Assembly (NCBI GenBank): GCA_944332455.1
Contig: CALVJY010000006.1
Location: 1 to 64,000, forward strand
Direction of reading: 5' to 3'
Source: an uncultured Clostridia bacterium
GTDB lineage: Bacteria; Bacillota; Clostridia; Christensenellales; HGM11417
DNA length: 64,000 nt
Below are positions 13,001 to 43,873 of the stretch, piece after piece. The translations under genes were made by a program, and so were the position numbers. Position 1 is the first letter of the stretch. Every line of letters starts with the position of its first letter. The notes under the pieces were generated by a model. The model did no database searches. It saw only the letters and a program-made list of their open reading frames with translations, and was not told the origin of the DNA.

Positions 13001-13344
13001 GGATCGATGCGGAAGAGCACGCTGAATCCGTCCAGATAGACTTTTTTGTCCGAGCGGGCATGAAAGCCCATGCCCGTCGCCGGATCCGGCTCCAAAATCA
13101 GGTTCCCGCTGAGGTCGGTCCCCCGCTTGAAATTCTGATTGTAGAGCGTCTTCTGCCACTGGATGCCCTCAAAAGGGATGGCGTCGTCGTTGAAGGCCAG
13201 ATTTTCCGAGGCCTCGAGGTCGGGATTGGGGGTCCCCCCGACGATCTGCGCCTGGGCCGCCGAGATCCCGAAGAGAGCCGACAGGCAGAGCACCAGGGTC
13301 AGCAGCAGGGCGGACGCTTTTTTGCTTCTCTTTCTCATAGTCAT
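10039..13344 (-). CDS. Large surface protein with Big_4-type Ig-like domains and Cys C-terminal anchor
   Basis: The 1101-residue secreted protein has a signal peptide (about 1-32), a long beta-rich N-terminal half, and at least three segments like bacterial Ig-like Big_4 domains: around FADKLTIRLGDGSTTEV, LPEKLTATLNTGETLEV and FPDKLRVTFEDGTSEEI. Big_4 domains often accompany carbohydrate-active or binding modules. It ends with GGCGG, a hydrophobic stretch and RRQKD, the same tail type as three other proteins here. It is the last gene of locus 2, 25 bases after the GxGYxYP lipoprotein. A glycan-binding role is inferred. AAGGAGG lies four bases before the ATG; an ATG two codons later is also possible. 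Confidence 0.78.
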   Translation of the reverse strand: MTMRKRSKKASALLLTLVLCLSALFGISAAQAQIVGGTPNPDLEASENLAFNDDAIPFEGIQWQKTLYNQNFKRGTDLSGNLILEPDPATGMGFHARSDKKVYLDGFSVLFRIDPLFTDYEIKTGANWTFGLAQAEGQQDITAGITVCYNEELNDGQGGFEFYFQSIAGSTWPALFDSNNPSFPGAADFQAVDIATLAEGDLKTVRPTLGDPVRIELRYLNYQEAKAFGASMAPRIEQVAPHFYNTYYLFINDQLIDFQSYYGNELEENENGYDVLPGLAPFLGGDGVQAQWGINFPQEPAGAPNEYGWFYYYDNAFPNQATPHTMFPRTPVPDHHAARVTIFELGGDNVDGGAFYDSGEIQPNQNPAKALPVYGENFLYGNVRLGMFANDWTFRPSGEEGYFVTYESPVLLAGAEVPLAIFKDGGNYVSASETVLTYRASAEADAASFGVRILRERADAQVLFTVGQNSYPTQFTAEQPMTVSVGEYLYTHLFWKDSEFSFFVNGVELELTEEASSALMQALQSFDAAGFVTVGNPTADQKIVLGRIVEDGTATVRLKAVSIVGGAGPEVRSYTRGTADEAAILATFADKLTIRLGDGSTTEVGVAWTGTVRPNVPGIYRFVGEFTDSEGNLGQYIFEQDLLQQLSFDIEIMAEAEYQEYGSSSYTGKDWVSPPSILMDPFYYYKDADGYEHMMSNPTLSEAFTPYNVNKVDVDGYRFQFRLTSMSEGGGSLVIFTFMHKSGTHPVSTGVNVFQIYLTTNGQGRAAMELAYGQWVNGSVSSGRPKAMLYDPEANQWFEDVAFDNTGETEYEWSMRFEEGVYNLYLTAEGRSYRLVMPTEAQPAPTSSPQEITDLIASTFENGEEPGGAKMYVMLWNQIGKNELVFRQEYTKYIVSYEVPGNRFVTFGEPHGLPEKLTATLNTGETLEVNVDYGNTYDPELAQTQTLTGTISLPEGVTIGRGEVFTQDVRTEFEVEVTVSPEIRLITAVEGTADLRIMAGETPSFPDKLRVTFEDGTSEEISVVWTSENFNGMIAGTYEFTANPVGNYSFADSALEQAAVQVVVEAPAEGGCGGAAAGSASLLSAVLLGLVGLLGIRRQKD

Positions 13345-13369
13345 AGTTCCTCCTTGATCATCCGGGCGC

Positions 13370-16300
13370 TCACATCCGGTATTCGGCCAGCTTCAGATAG
13401 TACAGATTGGCCGCGCTTCCCTCCAGGTTGGCCCGGAAACGGACATAGACCGTTCCGTTGGGCTTGGCCACGGAGGACACATTGAAGCTGAGTTCGGAAT
13501 CCACGATCTCGCCGGACTGCACTTCCTTCAGGACCGTCCAGTTTTCCCCGTCGGCCGAGACCTCCAGCGTAAAGCGGCCGGAGGCATAGACGGTCAGAAT
13601 GGGGAATTCGTTCCCCGCGCCGAGGCGGAAGGCATAGGTCAGCACGTCCGCGCTGTTCACCCTGGCATAGGGCGTCTTGCCGCTGCCCTCCCGGGTGACG
13701 TCCCACCCGGAGACCAGATGGTTGTTGTCAAAGTCGTTCCCGCTCGGGGTGAACACGAACTCTTCCAGGGTCTCGAAGCCCATGCAATGCACCGTCCGGA
13801 TGCGCGAATCCGACTTGACGCGGATGTACATGCTTCCCGACGTTCCGGGCAACTGCGCGGAATAAAGGTTGCCGTAGCCGGCGGTGCGGTAGGCGCTCCG
13901 GTCGGTCTCGCTGACCTTGACGGGATAGAAATTTCTGCCGTCGGCCGACACCGAGATCTCGGTCGGGCCGTCGGCCTCCACCGTCAGCTGGCCGCCCCGG
14001 AAGGCCTCGGCCATGGGCATGCGGTAGGTCACCTCGCCCGTCCTGTACCCTTCTTCGTCCACGCTGCCCCCGGAGACGTAGTAGGCCCCGTCCGATCTGG
14101 TGTCGAAGGTCACGCTCCGATCGAGCTCCGCCCGTTCGGCCAGCATACTCAGATGGTAGAAGCGGAATCCGACGTCCTCCCCCGCCGAATCGGTGATCCG
14201 CAGGTAGACGGTCTTGCCCCGCATTTCCTCGGGCAGATCGAAAACCGCATGTTTCTCGCTGTAGTCCGTCGTCGGCACCCGCTGCTGCGCCGCGACCGTC
14301 CAGTTGACCAGATCGGTGGAGAGGGTGATCTTGTAATCTCCGCCGATGCTCAGGTCGAAGACGGCGTTCCCGGCGTCCTCGGCAAAGGGGAAGCGGTAGA
14401 TCACCACGTTGTCATCCTTGCCGAAGCGGTAGGCGGAAGTCAGGCCGTTTTCGTCCGAGGAAAAATTCTCGAACTGATCCGAGTAGAACAGAAAGCCCAT
14501 TTCGTTGCGGTTCATATCCGGCGTGAATTCGGCCGAGGTCACGTTGCAGAACTGCGAGGAAACCTTCTGCCGGTACAGATCCGCCAGCTGATTTTCGGTC
14601 ACGAAGACGTAGTTGTCGGGGGCTTTCTGCATGGCGTCGTAGATCTTGTCCAGCGAGGTGGTCCAGCCCATCAGCCCGATGTTGAAAAAGCTTCCGGGGG
14701 CGGCGTTCAGCTCCTGCAGGATGTCGGGCGCGCCCGCTCCCTCCAGCCCGGGCTGCGAGAAGGAGGCGTCCGGGAAAATGGTCTTGAAGACGGGGACATC
14801 CCGGAAGTAGAAGTTGTTTTCGCCGTTGAGGTAATCGAAGGTCCCGGCATAGTGCCCGAAGGTGGCCGAATCCCCGCCGTAGCCGCTGAGCACCGACGTG
14901 ATGTTGTCCATGTACATGATGTAGTCCATGGCCGTGTAGGGATCGCAGTGGATGGTGCGGATGGCTCCGTTCCCCAGCCGCTCTGCATACAGGTCGGTCA
15001 GGCCCAGAAAGTCCGAACGCATGTCCTCGGGGATGCGGGCATAGTTGATGTAGCCGGCGCCGGCCTCTCCCGTGGCGAAGCCGTCCCCCGGTTTCATGGT
15101 CTGATTGTAGTAGGCGATGATGTTGGGATTCAGATCCACGCAGGCCTGGTTGAGGGCCCAGGTGACCGGGTACTCTCCCCGCCTGCCGTTCTCGTAGATC
15201 TCGGGCAGCTTGCTGTTGGTGTAGGTGTTGTTGTCGGTCTCGGAAAAGGTCATGGAAACGTAGACCTTTTCGGGATCATAGGTCAGCTTTTCTTCCTCGG
15301 CCTGGGCAGAGACCCTGGGCAGGCCGCTCGTCCAGCTCAGATTCCAGGATTCCACGGTGACCAGGAAGTACTTTCCGTGATCGTTGCACTCCTGCACGCA
15401 GTACTCCTCGTCGTTTCCGTTGGCGTCGCCCAGGTTCCAGCAGCCGATGACCGGGGTGTTGGTCCCGGCGATGTCCAGGATGCGGTCCACCGTTTCCTGC
15501 GTGGGGACCGGCGTGCCGTTGGGCTTGGTGGCATGGTTCATGAACACGCCCCTGTGCGCCCGGTACTGCCGGTTGAAGACAAACATTTTGTTGCCGATGA
15601 TGTAGTCGTAGCAGGCCAGATTCAGGGTGCCGTTGTGCGCCGTGATCCGGTCGCTGAAGGTCCATTCGCCCTCGTCCATCCGCTCCAGCGCGTAGTCATA
15701 GCAGGCGTTCCAGATCTCCAAGCTGTCCCGGGGATACAGTTCGCCCTCCAGGGTCCCTCCCTCCCGCATGAAGGGACGGGTGTCCTCCAGCACGGGGAGC
15801 GGCTCCAGCCCGGCGGTCTGCAGCTGAGCGTTGACGCCGGCAAGCTGGCTCTGGGTCATGGGCAGCGCGGACAGCTGTCCGGCGGCCATGGCGGTCAGGT
15901 TGGCGGCGGCCATGTCGCCCAGGATCTGGTCGTGGTACTCCCGCTTGGCCAGAAAGTCCCTGTCGTCCAGCCGATCGTCGTAGAGCACGGCTCCGGCGAT
16001 CTTCTCCCGGTACAGGCCGATGACTTCGGCCAGATCGGTGCGCTCGTGGTACACTTTCTGATAGTAGGGCGCCCCGTCCTCCAGATAGGTCTGGTCCAGC
16101 GCGTCCAGCCAGTACCTTGAAGTGTTCATGGTCAAGTTGCCCTCGATCCAGAAGTTCATCGTCAGATAAAGGCTGGGATTGACCCTGTTCACGATGCCCT
16201 GCAGGGCCACGGCGGCAAAGAGTTCGGAGACGCCCGCGCCCTCCATGTCGAGGACCTGGATGATCTTTTCAGGCTCTCCCTCGGGACGGGGATAGGCCGT

Positions 16301-37857: not shown

Positions 37858-38085
37858 TCATTTCCAAAATAGTTCCCGGGGGTCGATCTTCAACACGCTC
37901 ATCAGCTTGAGAAGGTCGGCGATGCCGGGGTCTCTCCGCCCTTGCTCCCAGCTGGCATAGGCGCTCTCGGATATGCCCAGCTGCCCGGCGACTTCCCTTC
38001 TGGACAGCTGTCTGAGTTGGCGAAGTTTTTTTAAATGCGCGCCAAATGCTTCGGCTGAGATCAATCGTTCTTTCATGTCTTTCAT
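37858..38085 (-). CDS. Small XRE-family HTH regulator (copy A)
   Basis: The 75-residue protein is almost only a Cro/C1-type helix-turn-helix (about 17-70): LSRREVAGQLGISESAYASWEQGRRDPGIADLLKLMSVL in pieces is typical. It is about 60% identical by eye to the protein at 38241-38468, and the 3' flanks are also similar, so a segment duplication produced the pair. It probably binds DNA as a dimer. There is no partner toxin-like gene in the same direction. Confidence 0.88.
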   Translation of the reverse strand: MKDMKERLISAEAFGAHLKKLRQLRQLSRREVAGQLGISESAYASWEQGRRDPGIADLLKLMSVLKIDPRELFWK

Positions 38086-38240: not shown

Positions 38241-38468
38241 CTATTTCCAAAATAGCTCCCGGGGATCGATCTCCAGCACCTTCAGCAGATTGATCAGGTC
38301 GGCAATGCTGGGATCCCTCCGCCCCTGTTCCCAGTTGGCATAGGTGCTTTCAGCCACGCCCAGCTGTTCGGCCACTTTTTTCTGCGACAGCTGTTTGAAA
38401 TCCCGAAATTCTTTCAAACGAGGTCCGAATTCCTCAGGCGAAATCAGTTTTTCATTTTTCCCGGTCAC
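38241..38468 (-). CDS. Small XRE-family HTH regulator (copy B)
   Basis: The 75-residue Cro/C1-type protein has a helix-turn-helix (about 17-70; LSQKKVAEQLGVAESTYANW) and ends in IDPRELFWK like copy A. It is divergent from the gene at 38581, and a palindrome overlapping that gene's -35 box is a good candidate operator. It likely represses the divergent gene, itself, or both. Confidence 0.9.
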   Translation of the reverse strand: MTGKNEKLISPEEFGPRLKEFRDFKQLSQKKVAEQLGVAESTYANWEQGRRDPSIADLINLLKVLEIDPRELFWK

Positions 38469-38509: not shown

Positions 38510-38550
38510 AGTCAAAATGACTTGACAAGCGCAGATCGAAAAATTATAAT
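38510..38550 (+). promoter_or_regulatory. Perfect-consensus promoter with overlapping palindrome
   Basis: TTGACA (38522-38527) and TATAAT (38545-38550) with a 17-base spacer match the vegetative consensus exactly. The palindrome AGTCA-AAA-TGACT (38510-38522) ends on the first base of the -35 box, where a bound XRE dimer would block polymerase. Confidence 0.8.
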
Positions 38551-38580: not shown

Positions 38581-38967
38581 ATGGAAGAAAAAGACGGAAA
38601 TCTGCTCATGAACGATGCCTTTGTCTCTTTGTTGACACTCCTACAGCTTGCGGAAGAACACGGCAACCAGGAAGCTGTGGAGTACGTGGAGCGGGAGGCG
38701 GAAAAGTTTTTGATCGTTCTGCAAACGCTCAGTTTCCAGGAAAAAGACCTGTTGTGGTACATCAGAAATACCTCGCCGGAGGCTTTGAGTCAGCACCTCA
38801 GGATCGCCAAAAGAGACTATCTGCACGCGCAAAAATGTTCTCCCGCCAAACCGGACTCCGAGAGTTCCCGCTGGGACGAGCCGGAGGACGCCGAAACGCT
38901 CATAAAAAAGCTCCGGGCTATTTCCGAGCTGTACCAAAAGATCAAGGACAAAGATCATTGTTCCTGA
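38581..38967 (+). CDS. Hypothetical protein divergent from XRE gene
   Basis: The 128-residue protein looks soluble and mostly helical (FVSLLTLLQLAEEHGNQEAVEYVEREAEKFL in pieces; ETLIKKLRAISELYQKIKDK near the end) with an acidic linker (about 90-108). I recognise no family. CAGGAG precedes the ATG, and its promoter is a perfect consensus under a probable operator, so it is expected to be strongly expressed when derepressed. Possible roles include a phage- or stress-related accessory protein; this is a guess. Confidence 0.75.
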   Translation: MEEKDGNLLMNDAFVSLLTLLQLAEEHGNQEAVEYVEREAEKFLIVLQTLSFQEKDLLWYIRNTSPEALSQHLRIAKRDYLHAQKCSPAKPDSESSRWDEPEDAETLIKKLRAISELYQKIKDKDHCS

Positions 38968-39042
38968 CTTTTTCGCCCCTTCCCGGGGTCAGCCGCCGGG
39001 ACCGGCTTCCCTTGCCGGGTCAAGGTTCAATTTTAAAAAATC

Positions 39043-39267
39043 TGCCCTTCTTTCCTCGGGGCATGATTTTTCCGGCCTCTTCGGGCCGGCCTTTTCCTTT
39101 CAGCCCGGTCTTTTTTTAGATCGGGGACTTTTGCTCCGGCTCTTCACCGGGGCGTTATCCGACCTCCTCCAAGGTCGGTTCATTTTTCCGGTTTTCGCTA
39201 AAACCGGGTCTTTTGTTCCGGCACCTTATCGGGGTGCCCTCCCTTCCCCGGCCTCTCCCGGCCGGGG
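39043..39267 (+). repeat. Array of eight short hairpins about 29 bases apart
   Basis: Stems of 5-8 base pairs lie at 39043-39063, 39072-39089, 39104-39125, 39133-39153, 39159-39178, 39188-39207, 39220-39238 and 39246-39267. Each has a different paired sequence (for example CCGACCT/AGGTCGG, CCGGTTTT/AAAACCGG, GGCACC/GGTGCC), pyrimidine-rich loops on the plus strand, and usually Ts after the stem. Two weaker hairpins precede it (38976-38988, 39000-39021). No coding frame is convincing in 38968-39493. Confidence 0.7.
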
Positions 39268-39452: not shown

Positions 39453-39477
39453 CCCCCGGCCTTTCCTTGGCCGGGGG
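39453..39477 (+). terminator. Strong hairpin near the amidase end
   Basis: CCCCCGGCC and GGCCGGGGG flank a seven-base loop, with TTTT following on the plus strand. It would stop plus-strand transcription before it opposes the amidase gene. Confidence 0.65.
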
Positions 39478-41322: not shown

Positions 41323-41405
41323 ACAAAGGACCGCCCGAAACAGGCGGCCCTTTGGTCCGTAAAGTACCTGATGTTTGGCCGGATCCAAGCGGATCCGGCC
41401 GATTT
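41323..41405. terminator. Two strong hairpins after the locus 4 GH38 gene
   Basis: AAAGGACCGCC pairs with GGCGGCCCTTT (41323-41353), and GGCCGGATCC pairs perfectly with GGATCCGGCC (41377-41400), then GATTTTT on the plus strand. They fall between the converging orphan RNA and the GH38 gene. Bases 41107-41322 hold further T-rich hairpins and no gene. Confidence 0.65.
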
Positions 41406-41467: not shown

Positions 41468-43873
41468 TCAGATCTCCATGCCGGGCAGTTCGGTCAGCTT
41501 GCCGTCGAAGCGGAGGGTCTTGACCTCGAACTTGCCGAAGGTCAGGGCGATGCGGCTTTCCCCCATGCGGAACTCGGCCTTGGCCTCCCCGGCGGTGTTG
41601 TTGAACAGCCGGACGATCAGCCCCCTGCCGTCGTCGGCCTTTTTGAGGGCCTGCAGGGTGACGTTCGGGTCGGAGATGCCCACCTCGAAGGGTTTGGCGC
41701 TGCCGGCCTTCCCGCCGGGGAAGACGCTGACCGCAAAGGGCGTGCGGACAAATTCCAGGGCCTTGCGCTCCAGCTCCTGCTCCCGGGCCGGGCCGATGCG
41801 GAAGCGGTAGTTGCGCTCGCTCTGGTCCATCTTTTTGGTAAAGCGGCCCTCGGGCAGGATGCTCCGGTCCAGAATGGGATGGGCGCAGTAGGTCGTCCCC
41901 CGCATCAGCGAGAGGAAAAGGCTGCCGTTCTCGAAGTGGCTGCCGTAGATACAGTCGTTCCAGACCCCGAGCAGGTCCTTGCCGCTCTCCACGGCGACAA
42001 AGCGCTGGGAGACGTTTTCCCGGCCGTCCGTGAACAGCTCGTCTATGCCGAACACGGCCTGACCGAAGACCCGGCCGGCCCCGCAGACCGGAAGCTCCAG
42101 CTTGACGATCTTGTTGACATCGCCGGGGAAGAGGTCGACCAGCACGTCCACCTCGTCGTTGTTTTTCCAGATGCGGTACTCCACTCTGGCCCGGGTGTTG
42201 TCCCGGCGGAAGAAGGCCTCGACGCCCAGGTAGATCGGGCCGTCCTCGATGACCTGCACCGGCTTCATGCCGGCAAACACCCCGTCGGGCTCCTTCATCA
42301 GCTCGAAGGGCTTGGGATCGGTACCCAGGCGGGTCCGCTGCTCGGCCCCCATCCCCCAGGGATCGGGATTGTCCTCGAACAGATTCAGCCGGCAGGCGTC
42401 CTGCAAATAGTCCTTTCCGTTCACCCGGAAGCTCTTCAAAAGTCCGGTCTTCCCGTCGATCTCCACCCGTTTTCTGCCGTTGTCAAAGACCAGATCCTCC
42501 GACTTTTTGGCGGACTCGGCCTTGACCATGTCCACAAAGACCCGGAAGCGGTTCAGAGAAAGGGGCTTAAGTTCGGCCTCGAACACCACCTTTTTGCGCC
42601 AATCCAGATGGATGTTGCTCTCCTCCTTGACCACCTGGAAGAACACCGGTTTTCCGGCCTCGTCGGTCATGCGGATGCGGGAGGTCACTTCCTCGCTCCA
42701 ATTCTGGTCGGCCAGCATGAATTCGCAGGCCACGTTGGCGGTCAGGGCGTAGGGATGGGGATTGAAGACCACGATGGGATACTCCCCCTCCCCGGCCGCC
42801 TCCTGCTCCCGGCAGAGGGCGAACAGGGCGGCGGACTTGACCTTGTCGGTCTCGTTCAGGCCGTGCAGGAAGATCATCTCTCCGTTCTCCTCCCCGGCGC
42901 GGATGCAGCTGCCGGGCAGCACGTCGTGGAATTCGCCGGTCAGAAGGTCTTCCTCGGCCAGCGCCAGCCGCTCGGTGGGATAGTCCATCAGCCCCTTCTG
43001 CTCGGCCAGCGCGGCCATGATCTCGGCGTAGTACAGCTCGTTTTCCAGCCGGATGTGGCGCTGCTTGACCTTGTTCATGGAGGTGTAGCACCCCGGCATG
43101 GAGATGTGCAGGGACTTTTTGAAGACCGAGGTCGGCCCGATCTCGGCAAAAAAGGCCTCGGGGGTAGAGTGGATGTACTCGTTCTCCCCCTCTTTTTGAA
43201 GGATTTCGATGTCGGCGAGGTCCTTGGCCGAGGGGCCGCCGCCGTGGTTGCCCACCCCCCAGAGCACGCAGACGGTGTCTTCCTTCTGGTTTTCGGCCCG
43301 CTCGCGGATGGCCCGGGCCGAGTCGCCCAGGGGAGAATTGTAGCCCGCCGAGGAGCGGAAGGCCTTGACGCGGCTGCCGTCGAAGCCCTCCCAGATGAAC
43401 TGATCGGCCTCTAAGCTCAGCTCAGGCGGATAGGGGCGGCAGAACAGATAGCTGTCCTGCCCACACTTGGTCAGGATCTGGACCAGCCCCCGGCTGTGGC
43501 CGAAGGGATCGACGTTGAAGGCCGTGGTCGACCATTCCCCGAACTGCTCGGTAAAATACTTCTTTCCGCGCAGGACCTGGCGGACCAGGCTCTCCCCGGC
43601 GGGCAGGTTGCAGTCGGGCTGCAGAAACCAGCCCCCCATGACCCGCCATTTGCCCGCCTTGATCAGCCGGCGGATCTCCTCGAAGAGCTCCGGATCGTAC
43701 TCCTGAGCGTACTTGTAGACCGTCACCTCGTTGTGACAGAACACATAGTCGTACTTTTCGGCCAGCTTGACCGCCGAACGGAAGGTGGAGAGGGCCGCGC
43801 TGGCTCCCTCCTGCCAGTCCCACTGCCAGATGGGATCGATGTGCGCGTTGCAAATCATGTGTACTCGTTTCAT
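41468..43873 (-). CDS. GH38 alpha-mannosidase
   Basis: The 801-residue cytoplasmic enzyme has HIDPIWQWDW (His11, Asp13) and NVDPFGH with the expected nucleophile Asp122, plus GNHGGGP. Its start overlaps the stop of the GH106-like gene (ATGA), so the two are translated together and may act on one substrate, consistent with a glycan carrying both mannose-like and rhamnose-like residues. It is a paralogue of the 29850-32285 enzyme. Family and catalytic residues are clear; specificity is not. Confidence 0.93.
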   Translation of the reverse strand: MKRVHMICNAHIDPIWQWDWQEGASAALSTFRSAVKLAEKYDYVFCHNEVTVYKYAQEYDPELFEEIRRLIKAGKWRVMGGWFLQPDCNLPAGESLVRQVLRGKKYFTEQFGEWSTTAFNVDPFGHSRGLVQILTKCGQDSYLFCRPYPPELSLEADQFIWEGFDGSRVKAFRSSAGYNSPLGDSARAIRERAENQKEDTVCVLWGVGNHGGGPSAKDLADIEILQKEGENEYIHSTPEAFFAEIGPTSVFKKSLHISMPGCYTSMNKVKQRHIRLENELYYAEIMAALAEQKGLMDYPTERLALAEEDLLTGEFHDVLPGSCIRAGEENGEMIFLHGLNETDKVKSAALFALCREQEAAGEGEYPIVVFNPHPYALTANVACEFMLADQNWSEEVTSRIRMTDEAGKPVFFQVVKEESNIHLDWRKKVVFEAELKPLSLNRFRVFVDMVKAESAKKSEDLVFDNGRKRVEIDGKTGLLKSFRVNGKDYLQDACRLNLFEDNPDPWGMGAEQRTRLGTDPKPFELMKEPDGVFAGMKPVQVIEDGPIYLGVEAFFRRDNTRARVEYRIWKNNDEVDVLVDLFPGDVNKIVKLELPVCGAGRVFGQAVFGIDELFTDGRENVSQRFVAVESGKDLLGVWNDCIYGSHFENGSLFLSLMRGTTYCAHPILDRSILPEGRFTKKMDQSERNYRFRIGPAREQELERKALEFVRTPFAVSVFPGGKAGSAKPFEVGISDPNVTLQALKKADDGRGLIVRLFNNTAGEAKAEFRMGESRIALTFGKFEVKTLRFDGKLTELPGMEI

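Follow-up and report, generated by a model that had tools for sequence, protein, structure and literature searches.

The window, i.e. the whole stretch of 64,000 nucleotides that was analyzed, contains an array of hairpins (39043-39267) within a 526-nt intergenic region, which separates two convergent genes, a rightward orphan and a leftward amidase gene. The array starts 75 nt past the orphan stop (38967). Around it, the following features were identified:

38241-38468, minus strand: gene of an HTH_3 (XRE-type) regulator of 75 aa (Pfam PF01381, E=1.1e-13), divergent from the orphan gene
38510-38522, no strand assigned: operator-like inverted repeat AGTCA-aaa-TGACT that touches the -35 box; candidate binding site of the divergent XRE-type repressor
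38522-38550, plus strand: sigma-70 promoter of the orphan, TTGACA-17-TATAAT, matching the consensus at 12/12 positions
38581-38967, plus strand: orphan ORF of 128 aa with a ribosome-binding-site-like AGGAG, whose transcript would run into the array
39453-39477, plus strand: extra terminator-like hairpin CCCCCGGCC-TTTCCTT-GGCCGGGGG-TTTTC, 16 nt past the amidase stop codon
39494-40327, minus strand: gene of a CwlD-like N-acetylmuramoyl-L-alanine amidase (PF01520, E=1.6e-38), convergent with the orphan

The amidase reached 161 bits with TIGR02883 (spore_cwlD), which is below the cut-off of 221.55. Relatives of the orphan were not found in Pfam, PHROGs, NCBIfam, plasmids or IMG/VR, and the sampled genomes of relatives, order and class yielded one weak partial match. 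Since the codon-usage score of the orphan is low and the GC content of 500-nt windows between 37500 and 39000 amounts to 44-50%, versus mostly 0.59-0.66 in the surroundings, the cassette of regulator and orphan may have been acquired. A second, similar XRE-type regulator of 75 aa is encoded in the same GC-poor patch beside the orphan (37858-38085, minus strand), in tandem with that at 38241-38468. Regulation of the orphan by the adjoining XRE-type protein is plausible because of the operator-like repeat at the -35 box and the adjacent divergent gene. The orphan promoter is one of 35 full-consensus promoters with a spacing of 17 that were detected in the scanned part of the bacterium's own genome, comprising the window and further stretches (1,647,176 bases, 1.65 of 2.35 Mb or 70%).

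All eight hairpins reported by the earlier note were found again at their positions. They do not overlap, possess stems of 5-8 bp, all of them different, and extend over 225 nt:

39043-39063 (39036-39071 with flanks), no strand assigned: hairpin 1, stem extended by the flanking tracts AAAAATC/GATTTTT
39072-39089, plus strand: hairpin 2, CCGGCC-TCTTCG-GGCCGG, tail CCTTTTCC
39104-39125, plus strand: hairpin 3, CCCGGTC-TTTTTTTA-GATCGGG, tail GACTTTT
39133-39153, plus strand: hairpin 4, GCTCCGG-CTCTTCA-CCGGGGC, tail GTTAT (weak)
39159-39178, plus strand: hairpin 5, CCGACCT-CCTCCA-AGGTCGG, tail TTCATTTTT
39188-39207, plus strand: hairpin 6, CCGGTTTT-CGCT-AAAACCGG, tail GTCTTTTG
39220-39238, plus strand: hairpin 7, GGCACC-TTATCGG-GGTGCC, tail CTCCCTT (poor U tract)
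39246-39267, plus strand: hairpin 8, CCCCGGCC-TCTCCC-GGCCGGGG followed by TTTTTT; strongest predicted terminator of the array

The centers of the hairpins lie 27.5, 34, 28.5, 25.5, 29, 31.5 and 27.5 nt apart (mean 29.1, sd 2.8), in good agreement with the spacing of 25-34 bases originally described, and the gaps between them measure 8, 14, 7, 5, 9, 12 and 7 nt. Only 0.2% of draws with random linker lengths gave an equally even spacing. In part, the regular look of the array is a by-product of tightly packed hairpins of similar size.

The number of stems clearly exceeded that of 1000 dinucleotide-preserving shuffles of the segment 39036-39275. Seven stems of at least 6 bp were counted versus a shuffle mean of 1.3 (maximum 4), and eight stems of at least 5 bp versus a mean of 2.3 (maximum 5). 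Thus, the comparison with shuffled sequences, on which the earlier note had let its case depend, came out in favor of the array, as the observed counts were reached in 0 of 1000 shuffles. A stricter threshold (score of at least 16 and at least 6 bp) was passed by seven of the eight hairpins, hairpin 1 being weaker. Folded as RNA, the plus strand of the segment gave -104.6 kcal/mol (z = -6.55), a value that none of 200 shuffles attained, and the minus strand gave z = -5.29. Upstream of the array weaker hairpins exist (38981-39018). Past 39275 the stem excess thins out, with three stems between 39276 and 39493 versus 1.1 expected and up to five in shuffles. Matches to Rfam at the gathering threshold were absent from the window. 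The array is genuine, deviates strongly from randomness and is unusual for its surroundings.

The two further properties ascribed to the array, pyrimidine-rich loops and Ts after most stems, were confirmed as well. On the plus strand, the pyrimidine share is approximately 83% in the loops and likewise in the linkers, and rises to 90% among the bases left unpaired in the minimum-energy fold. T-rich tails (at least 5 T in 8 nt) follow six of the eight stems on the plus strand and none on the minus strand, while 1000 shuffles gave a mean of 0.7 and a maximum of 3 tailed stems. The same proportion (6/8 on the plus strand) combined a GC-rich stem with a T-rich tract as in a canonical terminator, hairpins 4 and 7 being poorly tailed. 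In a terminator scan, matches clustered on the plus strand in the array region. With our own version of a d'Aubenton-Carafa-type score, hairpins 2, 5 and 8 and the hairpin at 39453 were positive on the plus strand; the other five hairpins of the array were negative and weak singly. Hairpin 1 folds on either strand (-13.5 kcal/mol on plus, -13.8 on minus) and is next to a T-rich tract on both. Outside the intergenic region, a strong terminator-like hairpin (TTGGCCGGATCC-AAGC-GGATCCGGCCGA followed by TTTTT) was noticed on the plus strand at 41375-41402, just past the stop of a leftward glycoside-hydrolase-like gene at 41468.

A search of the genome for similar arrays, which had been proposed together with the original observation, revealed no equal in the scanned 1.65 Mb (70%), where the array is the longest chain of T-tailed hairpins. 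Only two clusters of seven stems exist in this sequence, the second of which belongs to a different, repeated element. Other chains of at least five T-tailed hairpins (at least 4 T in 8 nt) were not found in 864 kb of the genome, nor were chains of at least five hairpins with a pyrimidine tail in the 1.65 Mb. The first 864 kb include 286 intergenic regions that are 150 nt or longer, and the array region has more hairpins per 240 nt than any other of these. Homologues of the array were detected neither elsewhere in the own genome nor in three other genomes of the same family nor in phages, and an exact 20-mer search of IMG/VR was negative. The three same-family genomes contributed about 190 kb, in which the biggest hairpin cluster comprised three hairpins. 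The neighborhood of the amidase gene is not conserved among 63 relative loci, and downstream of their amidase genes there is no such array (at most five hairpins per 240 nt, mostly one to three). The earlier note had made its reading depend on conservation in relatives, which accordingly failed to appear at the amidase loci as well as in the same-family genomes. It had also taken the differences between the stems as the outcome of selection on RNA structure, an argument presuming that the units share an ancestor. Compared to composition-matched random hairpins, the pairwise likeness of the eight units gave p values of 0.07 (mean) and 0.06 (maximum). There is no clear sign of common ancestry, the similarity being marginal rather than absent, and with units barely more alike than random hairpins and no homologous array in the genomes searched, selection on structure is not supported.

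The T tails, occurring on the plus strand only, suggest a series of intrinsic terminators behind the rightward orphan gene. We conclude that the array is probably a stacked intrinsic ("hairpin-cluster") terminator between convergent genes. The conclusion draws on what was observed, i.e. the hairpins themselves, their excess over shuffles, the polarity of the tails, the convergent genes and the promoter match. Of the three readings initially offered, the strong composite terminator appears best supported, given the one-sided tails, the convergent genes and the strong-looking promoter upstream.

Transcription of the array, the efficiency of termination and the cause of the stacking are inferred from the sequence as follows. 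The orphan would be read rightward from its full-consensus promoter, and the polymerase would leave the gene into the array. There it would meet eight mostly GC-rich hairpins in series, most of them with modest U-rich tails and the last one with a strong U6. Each weak unit would let go a fraction of the polymerases, so that read-through would drop multiplicatively, and the hairpin at 39453 would act as one more strong terminator past the array. In this way read-through would be cut before the polymerase enters the convergent amidase gene in antisense direction. As the consensus promoter is aimed at a convergent gene, a need for strong termination is plausible. Hairpin 1 with its A and T tracts on both sides could also stop leftward transcripts from the amidase gene, because its T-rich tract on the minus strand might prevent their antisense entry into the orphan. 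Several points stand against a terminator stack. Eight units look excessive if hairpin 8 alone is strong, five of the eight are weak by themselves on the score mentioned above, and the array is not conserved at relative loci or in the same-family sequence examined. Moreover, the other consensus promoters of the scanned 1.65 Mb lack a comparable array, since the array is unique in this sequence.

Stopping at hairpin 8 would keep seven hairpins in the transcript. The array might thus be a structured 3′ UTR or a released small RNA, whose hairpins shield the orphan mRNA from 3′ exonucleases or whose pyrimidine-rich loops and linkers are offered to an RNA-binding protein, e.g., an Hfq-like one. The pyrimidine content of the unpaired bases and a distant Hfq-family match in the genome agree with this. 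However, the units share neither a loop nor a stem motif, terminator tails explain the U-rich linkers equally well, CsrA was not found in the genome (assembly 94% complete), and conservation was not seen in the relatives searched. Altogether, such a function seems rather unlikely. The related proposal of the earlier note, identical sites for a hairpin-binding protein, was weakened by the diversity of stems and loops and by the lack of a CsrA match. An RNA titrating a protein in the manner of CsrA/RsmY was rejected, as the genome has no match to CsrA and the plus-strand loops are pyrimidine-rich instead of mostly containing GGA.

The genome contains other hairpin repeats. In one type, GTGATATT-like linkers connect stems that differ from each other into tandem arrays, which repeat about every 26 nt. 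A second type consists of dispersed arrays with variable stems and fixed ATATCGA linkers, accounting for 259 motif matches on both strands of the 1.65 Mb. Both types have conserved linkers, short loops and many copies. Examples of these conserved-linker arrays are:

L128, 14476-14616
L151, 18817-18965
L065, 6616-6711 (minus strand) and 13134-13390

They resemble the array at 39043-39267 in their tandem, differing stems and, in the GTGATATT type, by the period of about 26 nt, while the latter has no conserved linkers (neither ATATCGA nor GTGATATT occurs in it), short loops or many copies. In addition, 31 matches in the 1.65 Mb belong to a structured element of about 200 nt that is dispersed over the genome, e.g., at L069 (5973-6440), L070 (2979-3333), L066 (8443-8581) and L102 (17512-17751). 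It exhibits the conserved linkers CGGTGAG, GTGAATCAAAA and GAGAGRGRAAAAC, and its hairpin modules differ from copy to copy as whole alternative cassettes yet stay paired. An Rfam match was absent in the loci tested, and the element resembles a family of modular repeats or RNAs.

The abundance of ATATCGA- and GTGATATT-linked repeats, the missing conservation of the array and the marginal similarity of its units (p 0.06-0.07) are compatible with a non-selected origin by local template switching, quasi-palindrome correction or decay of a hairpin repeat array, in which case the array as such would have no function. We regard this as unlikely. The hairpin repeats of the genome mostly have loops of 3-5 nt and conserved linkers, both missing from the array, and neither neutral formation of palindromes nor a palindrome array acting at the DNA level would be expected to give T tails on one side only. 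For the decay of an older repeat, which had likewise been suggested, there is no positive evidence, since the linkers and loops of the other arrays differ.

The best Rho match of the genome (C7:40025-40921), located within an ORF of 383 aa (L167, 1324-2475), scored 44 bits versus a cut-off of 509. A weak Rho RNA-binding domain, just under its Pfam cut-off, is kept. Compared to the intact Rho of a same-family genome (G003), Walker A is lost (LPGQTG-SAFF in place of PPKAGKTTLL), and neither the Q-loop segment nor a C-terminal part with the ATPase motifs remains. Therefore, Rho-dependent termination has probably been lost, though in the 94% complete assembly a separate intact rho could sit in the absent 6%. 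Hence, a Rho site at the array is unlikely, and it is plausible that intrinsic terminators are used more heavily. A Rho-dependent or attenuator-like site using the pyrimidine-rich RNA has next to no probability, because, despite its C/U-rich single-stranded linkers and loops, the array RNA is strongly folded, unlike Rho sites, which are normally unstructured, and the Rho match lacks the P-loop and the C-terminal ATPase motifs. Rho homologues with no recognizable Walker A P-loop were also encountered at L169 (347-1624) and L170 (737-1837) in two other genomes of the same order (G034 and G076) without a full-score Rho. Possibly, these proteins represent a retained, ATPase-dead Rho family in bacteria that lost Rho-dependent termination.

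Returning to the stacked terminator, its many units may be a consequence of the degenerate Rho, but a single array is too little to establish a trend linking Rho loss to hairpin stacking. It is highly improbable that a lineage with ATPase-less Rho builds long arrays of dissimilar terminators as a Rho substitute, aided by a Rho-like or Hfq-like protein at the pyrimidine-rich linkers. If such a link held across genomes, Rho-less insulation of convergent genes would be tied to a countable sequence feature, and the array is useful for asking whether lineages without a working Rho compensate with hairpin arrays. As an extreme natural case of terminator stacking it also raises the question of how many weak hairpins match one strong terminator. 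Otherwise, being a single unconserved locus, it is of modest importance.

Among known systems, rrnB T1-T2 of E. coli consists of two consecutive units of hairpin and U-tract behind a strongly transcribed unit. The array shares the serial arrangement of such units, which here number eight or more instead of two and, except for unit 8, are mostly weak. ToxI of type III toxin-antitoxin systems is composed of tandem, near-identical structured RNA repeats of about 30-40 nt upstream of the toxin gene. The array, too, is a tandem series of structured units of this length, located close to both a small gene and a terminator; its units all differ and lie downstream of the gene. Type III toxin-antitoxin repeats were dismissed owing to this wrong order, the dissimilar units and the fact that a toxin homologue was not recognized. 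For Rickettsia, one report describes convergent gene pairs both with and without clean termination (PMC3027695). The closest counterpart are the hairpin clusters that were studied as terminators in 13 genomes by comparison with RNA-seq data (Gupta and Pal 2021, PMC8355165). These short hairpins are less than 15 nt apart, reside past the stop codon, usually within 80 nt, and are thought to terminate together, poly-U reportedly being unnecessary; clusters of two are commonest, and the numbers fall exponentially with size (PMC8355165). The array agrees with them in its gaps of 5-14 nt, all below 15 nt, and in its start 75 nt past the stop codon. It differs by its eight hairpins, mostly T-tailed on one strand and nearly evenly spaced over 225 nt, although cluster sizes are not directly comparable since the hairpin prediction in PMC8355165 was more permissive than ours. 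By this comparison, the array fits the hairpin-cluster kind of terminator, at its long end.
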